A DNA stretch of 64,000 nt from Methylococcus sp. Mc7 (GTDB lineage: Bacteria; Pseudomonadota; Gammaproteobacteria; Methylococcales; Methylococcaceae): contig NZ_CP079095.1 in the NCBI RefSeq assembly GCF_019285515.1, positions 2,946,501-3,010,500 on the forward strand. Direction: 5' to 3'. Within the stretch, counting starts at the first letter, position 1. Each line of letters begins with the position of its first letter. The translations under genes and the position numbers were made by a program. Shown one piece after another: positions 57,447 to 59,603 of the stretch. The notes beneath the pieces were generated by a model. That model searched no databases. It was given only the letters and a program-made list of their open reading frames with translations, and was not told the origin of the DNA.

Positions 57447-57543
<97 letters not shown>

Positions 57544-57699
57544 GGGGACCGATGCGGCTTGCCATAGAATCGGTGAGCCGGCTGCTCATCAGAGAAGGCG
57601 CATTATGCCCGTTAACGTGGCGCGACACAAGGACTAGCCGGGTCTGCTGCTGGCCCCGCGCGATGGCGCCGCCGGTCAGGGAACGCCGGATGAGACCGG

Positions 57700-58099
57700 A
57701 AGCCCTCCTCTTTTGCGCTGAACACGCCATCGATGACGCAACAGTGACCGATCTGCCGGGAGCAGATTGGGACCGCGGGGCGACCCGTTGGGTGAAATAC
57801 CCGGACGTATTTCATCGGTGTGCAGATTGGCATTGAGCGCGGAGCCGAAGCAGTGGACAAACGTCGCCGCACCAAACCGCCGGGCACGTCCAGGCCACGG
57901 GAGCGCTGCGCCGCTTCACCCACTGCCGCACCGGCACCTCGGGAAACACGTGAGCCACCAGAGGTGTCGTCTCGACCATCCGCCGGGTGCTGCACGAGGG
58001 GCAGACCCCGCGGCCCTCGCAGCGGAAGGCGACCAGAAAGTCATGCCCGCAGCCGGCGCAGCGCTTGCCCGAAGGCTTCGAGCATGGAGGGGGCTTCAC
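57700..58099 (-). pseudogene. Degraded IS91-type transposase remnant
   Basis: Read on the minus strand, one frame gives CAGCGHDFLVAFRCEGRGVC then PSCSTRRMVETTPLVAHVFP and PVRQW, the zinc-binding N-terminus of IS91/IS801-type transposases. After that the frame is lost: another frame gives FGAATFVHCFGSALNANLH, and a third HCCVIDGVFSA, both pieces of the catalytic region. The section between is deleted. This is a dead remnant with frameshifts and an internal deletion. No element ends were found. Confidence 0.75.
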
Positions 58100-58174: not shown

Positions 58175-59146
58175 CTACTCCACCATCTCGATCAAAAATC
58201 TCGCAATCGGTCCCGCGATGTCCAGCCCCGTGAGCCTTTCGAAACCCGCGAACATCGGCGCCGGATTGACATCGAGGATGACGTGGCGGCCGGCATCGGT
58301 GCGCTTGAAATCGATACCGGCGAAGGCCAGGTGCATGGCCCGCGCGGTCTTGATCAGGTCGAGGCATTCCTCCGGGCTCAGGGGAGTCGGCTCGAAGTTC
58401 TGAGGACCTGTGCGGAAATCCACCCGATCGGTCATCAGCGCCCCGGCGGCGATGATTTGGCCGCCCAGAACATAGGCGCGGACATCGGTCCCATGGATGC
58501 GTTCCTGGAGCAGGACCGGCGCCTCCGACAACCGGTCCAGGAACTCCGCAGACAAATCGTCTGCGGTGAGCGCCACCGCCTCGCCACCCCCCGCCAGAGG
58601 TTTGCAAATCACCTGCTCATGCCGTGCGATAAAGCCTTTCACCGACTCGGAATCATTGCCCGCAAAAGTCGTCGGCACTGGAATCCCAGCCTGTTTCAGG
58701 TGGTCCACGGTGTGCAATTTATAGTAATGGCAAAGCAGGGTGCTCAGGGGATTCACCACGGGTTTTCCATGGGTTACCGCCCACCGCAAGAGGCTTCCCA
58801 GCATCGAATCCTTTTCCCGCAATGTCCGAAGCTGCAAGCGCAACGGCTCGCCGTCCTTGTGACCGTTGCCGGAATCCTGCTTGTGCCAGTCGTTGCAATG
58901 GAGGCTCCGCAGGAAAAAGGCCTTGATCGTGTTCAGGCTTACGGAATCGTACTGCCAGCCGCAATCGGAAAAGCCGAGAGCATGTCGGCGGGGAAATTCC
59001 GAAGTATCGATCAGAAGCGGCGGGTGGTCCAATTCGGAGAGGGAATCGCTAAGCCTGACGACTTCCAATTCGGTTGGGCTGCCGAGTATGGCGAAATCAT
59101 GCGTGGTGACGGCCTGCGATGCCGGTTGAGCGCAAAAACGGTTCAC
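58175..59146 (-). CDS. RimK/graspetide-type ATP-grasp ligase
   Basis: A 323-residue ATP-grasp enzyme. N-terminal domain: DFAILGSPTELEVVRLSDSL, with YDSVSLNTIKAFFLRSLHCN. ATP-grasp: NPLSTLLCHYYKLHTVDHLK, VICKPLAGGGEAVALTADDL, PVLLQERIHGTDVRAYVLGG, and the metal-binding DVNPAPMFAGFE. This resembles RimK and the macrocyclases of graspetides (MvdC/MvdD type), which join acidic side chains to Ser/Thr/Lys in a precursor peptide. The small secreted protein encoded 148 bases upstream on the same strand, with a leader-like motif, is a candidate substrate. GTG start inside an inverted repeat; AAGGGA is 5 bases before it. Confidence 0.8.
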   Translation of the reverse strand: MNRFCAQPASQAVTTHDFAILGSPTELEVVRLSDSLSELDHPPLLIDTSEFPRRHALGFSDCGWQYDSVSLNTIKAFFLRSLHCNDWHKQDSGNGHKDGEPLRLQLRTLREKDSMLGSLLRWAVTHGKPVVNPLSTLLCHYYKLHTVDHLKQAGIPVPTTFAGNDSESVKGFIARHEQVICKPLAGGGEAVALTADDLSAEFLDRLSEAPVLLQERIHGTDVRAYVLGGQIIAAGALMTDRVDFRTGPQNFEPTPLSPEECLDLIKTARAMHLAFAGIDFKRTDAGRHVILDVNPAPMFAGFERLTGLDIAGPIARFLIEMVE

Positions 59147-59191
59147 GCCGGTCCCTTTATAAGTTCGGCACAGGACCGGCGTGAACCGTTT
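59136..59191. promoter_or_regulatory. 19-bp inverted repeat over the ATP-grasp start codon
   Basis: AAACGGTTCACGCCGGTCC (59136-59154) is perfectly complementary to 59173-59191, with 18 bases between. On the minus strand the second arm contains the GTG start (59144-59146) of the ATP-grasp gene, and the AAGGGA ribosome site lies at the loop edge. In RNA it would form a strong hairpin hiding the start; in DNA it could be an operator. Confidence 0.7.
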
Positions 59192-59294
59192 ACAACGAGC
59201 GGCATTACGATCCGAGTGGAGAAACCGGCTCGGAACCCAATAGCCGTCACGTTGCGGTTTCCTGGAGACGGCTGTTCTGGTGACCCTGGCCTGA

Positions 59295-59603
59295 TTAGAG
59301 TGGAATCATTTGCAGATTTCCGGGTCCGCCCTCCTCGCCGAGAGCCATCGTGGTGACCTCGCCCGGACCATTATAGGGCGGATTATAGATCGGATTACCC
59401 TGGGGTGGATGCCACCGGTGCCAACCTCCGGAATACTCGGGTAACTCGACTCCTGCCGTCACACCATCGAGCTGCTGCTCGGTCAACTGAATGCCGGATG
59501 CGCCTTTCTGAGTATCCGGGGGTGTTACCGCTTCCGCCGGCACCGAAACCAGCAACGGCAGTACCGCGGCAGTGCTTAAGATCAAGCGTTCGTTAGTTTT
59601 CAT
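59295..59603 (-). CDS. Secreted putative RiPP precursor
   Basis: A 102-residue protein. Residues 1-25 form a Sec signal peptide (LILSTAAVLPLLVSVPAEA). At 40-51 lies LTEQQLDGVTAG, very like the double-glycine-type leader ends of many ribosomal peptides. The remaining 51 residues are Gly/Pro/Tyr/Trp rich (YSGGWHRWHPPQGNPIYNPP) with acidic and Thr residues (GEVTTMALGEEGG) that an ATP-grasp ligase could link. The ATP-grasp gene follows on the same strand. A Sec signal in front of such a motif is unusual. It may instead be a secreted peptide unrelated to the ligase. ATG at 59603; ribosome site weak. Confidence 0.6.
   Translation of the reverse strand: MKTNERLILSTAAVLPLLVSVPAEAVTPPDTQKGASGIQLTEQQLDGVTAGVELPEYSGGWHRWHPPQGNPIYNPPYNGPGEVTTMALGEEGGPGNLQMIPL

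Follow-up and report, generated by a model that had tools for sequence, protein, structure and literature searches.

The window, the stretch of 64,000 nucleotides from Methylococcus sp. Mc7 that was analysed, contains two adjacent genes on the minus strand, the first encoding a small precursor-like protein and the second an ATP-grasp enzyme (Table 1). A sequence-only reading had described them as a protein of 102 residues, with a Sec signal and a double-glycine (GG)-type motif, followed by an ATP-grasp gene on the same strand, and both open reading frames (ORFs) were found where it had placed them. By eye, GGAG stands 5' of the ATG of the precursor, and AAAGGGA stands immediately 5' of the GTG of the synthetase at 59146. 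All signal peptides, including those of the C39 peptidases and of other proteins that combine a Sec-like signal with a GG-type motif (Sec+GG proteins), were judged by eye and by hydropathy.

Table 1. Features of the predicted graspetide locus, in positions of the window
Feature	Position	Strand	Remarks
Predicted graspetide precursor, 102 aa	59295..59603	-	signal-like N-terminus 1-25, linker 26-39, GG-type leader LTEQQLDGVTAG 40-51, 51-aa tail
Sec signal-like stretch MKTNERLILSTAAVLPLLVSVPAEA, including LPLL	59529..59603	-	by eye; LPLL invariant in four precursors
Double-glycine-type leader LTEQQLDGVTAG	59451..59486	-	pattern match and alignment
Predicted core VTTMALGEEGG (TTxxxxEE)	59325..59357	-	11/11 residues identical in Nitrococcus
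Perfect 19-bp hairpin (inverted repeat) between precursor and synthetase	59136..59191	-	followed by a run of U
Predicted ATP-grasp graspetide synthetase, 323 aa, GTG start	58175..59146	-	nearest solved relative 7drm; DFR at residues 243-245

A strict GG-leader pattern, applied to ORFs of 50-250 aa and required to start between residues 16 and 81, matched once in the window and never in 30 first-order random windows. Across nine loci with C39 genes, a GG-type pattern gave 22 matches in forward ORFs and none in the reversed proteins; one of the nine, L095, had no match. The core motif of plesiocin is TTxxxxEE, and the TTMALGEE core of the window precursor is predicted to be the site of two ester links. 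With both esters formed, the mature 51-mer has a calculated monoisotopic mass of 5516.6, compared with 5552.6 without them. One TT..EE unit is present in each of the four precursors compared, that of the window and three from related loci, and one of the latter (L023) has one additional loose match, TTPSWDD. Neither the precursor nor its tail gave a useful match in the PDB, and the AlphaFold model based on the four-row alignment had a pLDDT of 38.7.

The hairpin spans the ribosome-binding-like site and the start of the synthetase gene, and could lower the output of the synthetase relative to that of the precursor. The 201 nt around it have a z of -4.1, and both arms are unique in the genome when up to 2 mismatches are allowed. 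It does not appear in the terminator-scan listing, for which the loop limit was 8, and a promoter scan near the locus gave no hits. Since the hairpin is absent from the Nitrococcus-type loci described below, it is not a defining part of the locus.

Downstream of the ATP-grasp gene, 57812-58099 (-) encodes part of the zinc-binding domain of an IS91-type transposase (PF14319, E 5e-8), which hints at acquisition by transfer. The GC content of the locus is about 0.57-0.59 and below that of the near flanks, and the region at 63.0-63.7 kb is similarly low. A gene for the bacterial small SRP RNA was found at 57458-57554 (-) of the window (Rfam RF00169, 73.5 bits).

The synthetase and its class

In Pfam, the synthetase matches RimK above the cut-off (PF08443, E 7.6e-14). 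NCBIfam listed 23 families, among them MvdC and MvdD, and the enzyme reaches the cut-off of none; the top match is the RimK family TIGR00768 (84.4 bits, cut-off 143.4). The assignment to an MvdC/MvdD-type enzyme made by the sequence-only reading was abandoned, as the scores for these families are weak (43.7 against 425 bits and 35.8 against 475 bits) and the best solved relative is a different protein. With a profile built from four close members, the top match in the PDB was 7drm (E 5.1e-51, 176.5 bits), aligned over nearly its full length. The next solved relative was a RimK-type structure with 2.9e-15 and 59 bits, leaving a gap of 117.5 bits, and the microviridin-type enzymes rank among and below the RimK-type structures. 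In the PDB listing, 7drm is labelled merely as an ATP-grasp domain-containing protein; we take it to be PsnB, the plesiocin synthetase. Among solved structures, the window enzyme is thus by far nearest to this entry.

A DFR motif has been described as critical for graspetide synthetases (PMC13097080). It is aligned in the window synthetase, in the Nitrococcus enzymes, in an enzyme from another genome of the same class (G683) and in 7drm. Of the four RimK-like rows, two have EFR at this position and two have neither. DxR variants occur in more distant relatives, with DYR in Halocatena, DWR in Streptomyces and DSR in G523b and G550, and the relative on a Halorussus plasmid is without DxR. In a 19-row tree, the window enzyme and three Nitrococcus-type enzymes are grouped (98/95), and the placement of PsnB is not settled in the same tree. 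The designation as PsnB-type is therefore drawn from the score of the profile search and from the motif in the core.

Conservation and rarity of the locus

A scan of genome contigs found three close relatives, in Nitrococcus mobilis, in a Nitrococcus MAG and in a MAG labelled Alphaproteobacteria, each encoding an enzyme about 52% identical to the window synthetase. The genes and gene order on the contig of the last (L023) are closely those of Nitrococcus, and this contig is probably misbinned. In all three loci, a Sec+GG precursor lies directly 5' of the synthetase, so that the co-occurrence by which the sequence-only reading had proposed to judge its own claim was observed in every close relative. 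These precursors have a signal-like N-terminus, the leader LTDNQLDAV[TV]GG and a downstream part given as ...VTTMALGEEGGGISPVFWKL. The three Nitrococcus-type loci are near-copies of one another and, together with the window, effectively represent two lineages.

Conservation between the precursors is concentrated in the motifs. Between the window and the Nitrococcus-type locus L022, identity is 11/11 in the core, 8/12 in the GG leader and 10/25 in the signal, against 6/31 in the spacer and 1/9 at the end of the tail. TTMALGEE, which holds the linkable residues sought in an alignment of the tails, is invariant in 4/4 precursors. Compared with Nitrococcus, 7/11 core codons differ and every change is synonymous; therefore, it is the peptide that is conserved and not just the DNA. 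The earlier view of the whole tail as the modified core holds for TTMALGEEGG, but strong conservation is confined to 11 residues of the 51-aa tail, and the tail outside the core is about 18% identical between the window and the Nitrococcus type.

The LPLL element of the signal precedes the GG motif in 4/4 proteins with TTxxxxEE and in 0/24 other Sec+GG proteins, in a set of 28 Sec+GG proteins that a pattern search selected from nine loci; the four LPLL precursors represent about two independent lineages. Another P-h-h triplet is found in 4/24 of the Sec+GG proteins without LPLL. Graspetide leaders often carry a Phhx(1,2)h element (PMC8939145), and PLLVSV in the signal matches it. For the bufferins, preliminary results of the authors place the signal within the recognition sequence of the modifying enzyme (PMC12452194). 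The signal peptide may therefore double, through LPLL, as a recognition element for the ATP-grasp enzyme, and such a double role would explain ring closure before Sec export.

Among plasmids, 51 records matched the synthetase, and the surroundings of three were inspected. An ORF with TT..EE directly upstream of the ATP-grasp gene was found in one of the three (Halocatena) and was absent from the Halorussus and Streptomyces loci. On the Halocatena salina plasmid, where the ATP-grasp enzyme is 32.6% identical to that of the window, this ORF is unannotated (L029, 5558-5923 (+)), has the end ATPIGVTTMAMGEEVGDLSLPLI and stops 68 bases upstream of the ATP-grasp gene. The upstream ORF of this haloarchaeal relative terminates in VTTMAMGEEVGDLSLPLI, carrying VTTMAMGEE with the core TTMAMGEE, and its end GVTTMAMGEEVGDLSLPLI looks like a graspetide core. 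A GG-type leader was not seen in this ORF, and an internal ATG gives a likely short form of 39 aa without a signal. A second Halocatena ORF of 36 aa with TTPRRTEE is probably due to chance. Used as a query against plasmids, the Nitrococcus precursor had a single weak match (E 0.5), and no relative was found in viral contigs.

The synthetase family is rare. It was detected in 1/369 genomes of the class at 1e-40, this being the window genome itself, in 4/398 genomes of the phylum at 1e-30, namely the window genome and three distant ones, and in 2/54 genomes of the Nitrococcus order, both of the Nitrococcus type. At the thresholds used, neither gene was found in any of five genomes of the same genus, one of which is 87% complete. 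Distant matches in 12 further genomes, with 27-35% identity over the second half only, were not counted as the same family.

Other arrangements of small proteins with ATP-grasp genes were also seen. The genome G683 has, at 7167-10915 of L038, a 75-aa precursor with HPFFESI and VSGG, the leader HPFFESITPLQDAEVNAVSGG and the core YYTQAIGENGG, together with the DFR-bearing ATP-grasp enzyme. An ABC protein of the NHLM type is also encoded there (TIGR03796, E 5.7e-144, below the cut-off), and this is likely a conventional graspetide locus. In two Pseudomonadota genomes, G523 and G550 (loci L036 1279-3507 and L037 6688-8484), ATP-grasp genes stand behind tandem Gly-rich proteins of 87-96 aa that all end in NTSIGDINISS. 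These appear to be of a different kind, possibly another peptide class.

The C39 peptidase and the proposed pathway

The window genome, which consists of one contig and is 100% complete, encodes exactly one protein detected with PF03412 at E 0.001. Its open frame has 238 aa, it is not an ABC transporter, and it has a signal-like N-terminus. The gene lies at about 906.5-907.1 kb of the contig (C1), about 2 Mb from the graspetide locus, preceded by four genes for Sec+GG proteins and followed by one for a barrel-like protein. The peptidase is 53% identical to the C39 protein of L022. It matches FilB at 3.7e-31 (108.5 against 475 bits) and FapD at 2.9e-24 (85.6 against 330 bits), and the barrel-like protein matches FapF at 4.1e-6 (25.8 against 700 bits), with FilC not listed and the Pfam cut-off also not reached (15.1 against 22 bits). 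As all these scores are below the curated cut-offs, the two proteins are best regarded as putative relatives of FapD/FilB and FapF/FilC and not as members of these families.

In 3/3 Nitrococcus-type loci, a gene for a signal-bearing C39 peptidase and then a barrel gene follow directly 3' of the ATP-grasp gene (in L022, PF03412 with E 1.2e-14 and PF13557 with E 2e-9), and three to five Sec+GG genes lie upstream of the graspetide precursor. The earlier statement that neither a transporter nor a peptidase is visible is true of the surroundings of the locus in the window, but a C39 peptidase and a barrel-like protein are encoded about 2 Mb away, and their counterparts are next door in Nitrococcus.

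Near-orthologues of the C39 peptidase were found in five of 61 genomes, the window genome included (E 1.7e-97 or lower), and any match at 1e-10 in 11/61. Sec+GG proteins lie within the same 7-14 kb stretch as the near-orthologous genes in 5/5 cases. An adjacent barrel with a FapF match is present in four of the five (the window genome, G017, G057 and G006), and in G007 the contig ends. Together with the three Nitrococcus-type loci, these four are the cases of a signal-bearing C39 peptidase beside a barrel, the barrels being predicted. At E 1e-20 or better, none of the other four near-orthologue genomes has the graspetide synthetase; the export-type cluster is thus the more common of the two parts. 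Relatives repeatedly have small Sec+GG proteins clustered with a C39 peptidase resembling FapD/FilB and a barrel resembling FapF (L026 4199-8710; L089, L090, L091, L092), and no description of this cluster was found among the literature matches listed. FapD works in the periplasm, and Fap secretion depends on its peptidase activity; its cleavage target has been described as unsettled (PMC5557850).

On strong sequence evidence, this is a RiPP locus, and the 7drm-like enzyme, the DFR motif and the conserved adjacent precursor speak for the sequence-only reading in this respect. We consider it fairly probable that it is a plesiocin-type two-gene graspetide locus with a double-leader precursor that is esterified in the cytoplasm, exported by Sec, cleaved by a periplasmic C39 peptidase and passed on to a barrel. 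The ATP-grasp enzyme would join TT and EE of TTMALGEE by two side-chain esters in the cytoplasm, with a mass change of -36.02 Da, as strong homology suggests, and Sec would then carry the precursor across the inner membrane. In the periplasm, the sole PF03412 peptidase would cut after LTEQQLDGVTAG, at the proposed site behind its AG, and release the 51-residue peptide. This step is derived from the genome content and the synteny in Nitrococcus, and the link between graspetide and peptidase in the window genome from the likeness of the leaders, the lack of any other PF03412 protein and the Nitrococcus loci. G804 and G806 have 4 and 5 PF03412 proteins, respectively, and therefore the peptidase is less clearly determined in these genomes. 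In the last and weakest step, which is purely analogical, the barrel beside the C39 peptidase would probably let the peptide pass through the outer membrane. More tentatively, and with clearly less confidence than in the pathway as such, LPLL may also be a recognition helix that keeps the signal masked until the rings are closed, so that the graspetide would be modified in the cytoplasm before passing through Sec, the stand-alone periplasmic C39 peptidase and a FapF-like pore. Since all graspetides characterised by 2022 were reported to be protease inhibitors (PMC8939145), a protease inhibitor is a first guess for the product.

The explanations considered here overlap in part, and hence the probabilities assigned to them do not sum to one. 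It is unlikely that the graspetide is retained in the periplasm, with signal peptidase alone maturing it, the GG motif being a relic or binding site, and the C39 peptidase and barrel serving only their own neighbours. Such retention would fit the distance of about 2 Mb to the C39/barrel cluster and has a parallel in the bufferins, Sec-signal RiPPs said to sequester periplasmic copper (PMC12452194). However, the GG leader is conserved well above the spacer (8/12 against 6/31 residues in Nitrococcus), and the C39 and barrel genes stand directly downstream in 3/3 Nitrococcus-type loci. We give a low probability to the modified product being built into an extracellular Fap/Fil-like fibre as a minor subunit, which the rings would cap or lock. 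This explanation shares the export route of the preferred pathway, with which it overlaps, and differs in the function of the product. The three to five Sec+GG genes upstream of the Nitrococcus-type precursors and the Ala/Ser/Gly/Thr-rich composition (by eye) of the other Sec+GG proteins near FapD/FilB- and FapF/FilC-like genes point to it, but the mature graspetide is unlike these neighbours (by eye), and the protease inhibitors reported up to 2022 (PMC8939145) suggest another function.

Far less probable is that the enzyme works as a glutamate ligase like RimK, attaching residues to the peptide and closing no ring. Both the Pfam domain and the top NCBIfam match, at 84.4 against 143.4 bits, are those of RimK, yet 7drm is 117.5 bits ahead of the best RimK structure over nearly the full length, DFR is present where the RimK-like rows have EFR or neither, and the residues conserved as the target form an internal TTxxxxEE. 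Export of a conventional graspetide by an ABC transporter with a peptidase domain is the least probable of all, even though this is the usual route for graspetide group 2 (PMC13097080) and G683, from the same class, has the corresponding layout of precursor, DFR-bearing ATP-grasp enzyme and NHLM-type ABC protein. The precursor has a Sec-like signal, and the sole PF03412 protein of the window genome is no ABC transporter, which, as far as PF03412 at E 0.001 can detect, largely rules out conventional C39-ABC export in this genome.

Significance and comparison with known systems

The preferred reading, a plesiocin-type graspetide exported by Sec, would make the locus a compact test system of two genes and one C39 peptidase for both Sec-signal RiPPs and the cleavage of graspetide leaders. 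Sec signals are described as rare in the RiPP precursors of bacteria (PMC12452194), and a 2022 survey calls the enzyme that cleaves graspetide leaders unknown (PMC8939145). The Fap/Fil-type periplasmic C39 peptidases, which are little understood, would gain a candidate motif for their substrates, approximately L[ST]xxx[LM]Dx[VI][TS][AG]G. In addition, the locus suggests that RiPP searches that skip proteins with Sec signals could overlook such cases. Among the literature matches listed, titles and the starts of abstracts named no Sec-signal or Fap-linked graspetide, and a prior mention in survey supplements is possible.

With the microviridin enzymes MvdC/MvdD and MdnB/MdnC, the window locus shares ring closure by ATP-grasp enzymes, which is a prediction here; it differs in having one enzyme, a leader without PFFARFL and a core without Lys. 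The Sec-signal precursor is shared with bufferins and other MNIO-modified RiPPs, whereas in the window locus an ATP-grasp enzyme takes the place of the MNIO, a partner protein was not seen next to it, and the precursor has a second leader, of the GG type. A signal-bearing C39 peptidase beside a protein of the outer-membrane-barrel type is also found in the Fap (FapD, FapF) and Fil (FilB, FilC) systems. Here, one of the proposed C39 substrates is a predicted graspetide, the scores lie below the curated cut-offs, and the substrates have clear GG-type leaders, unlike the Fap proteins, which are said to be without canonical C39 sites (PMC5557850).

Another close known system is plesiocin (PsnA2/PsnB), which resembles the window locus in the TTxxxxEE core and in 7drm as the best solved relative of the enzyme; its precursor has four core units and that of the window one. 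Two esters are formed per unit in plesiocin (PMC12291112). Group 2 graspetides are normally paired with NHLM-type transporters (PMC13097080), and the PF03412 search found no such transporter with a C39 domain in the window genome. A transporter of this type is frequent in the group but does not strictly define it. A plesiocin-like graspetide would thus be the part of the locus that is already known, and what appears to be new, as judged from the genes, is the combination of a Sec-like signal, a GG leader and a stand-alone, signal-bearing C39 peptidase in place of the NHLM-type transporter.
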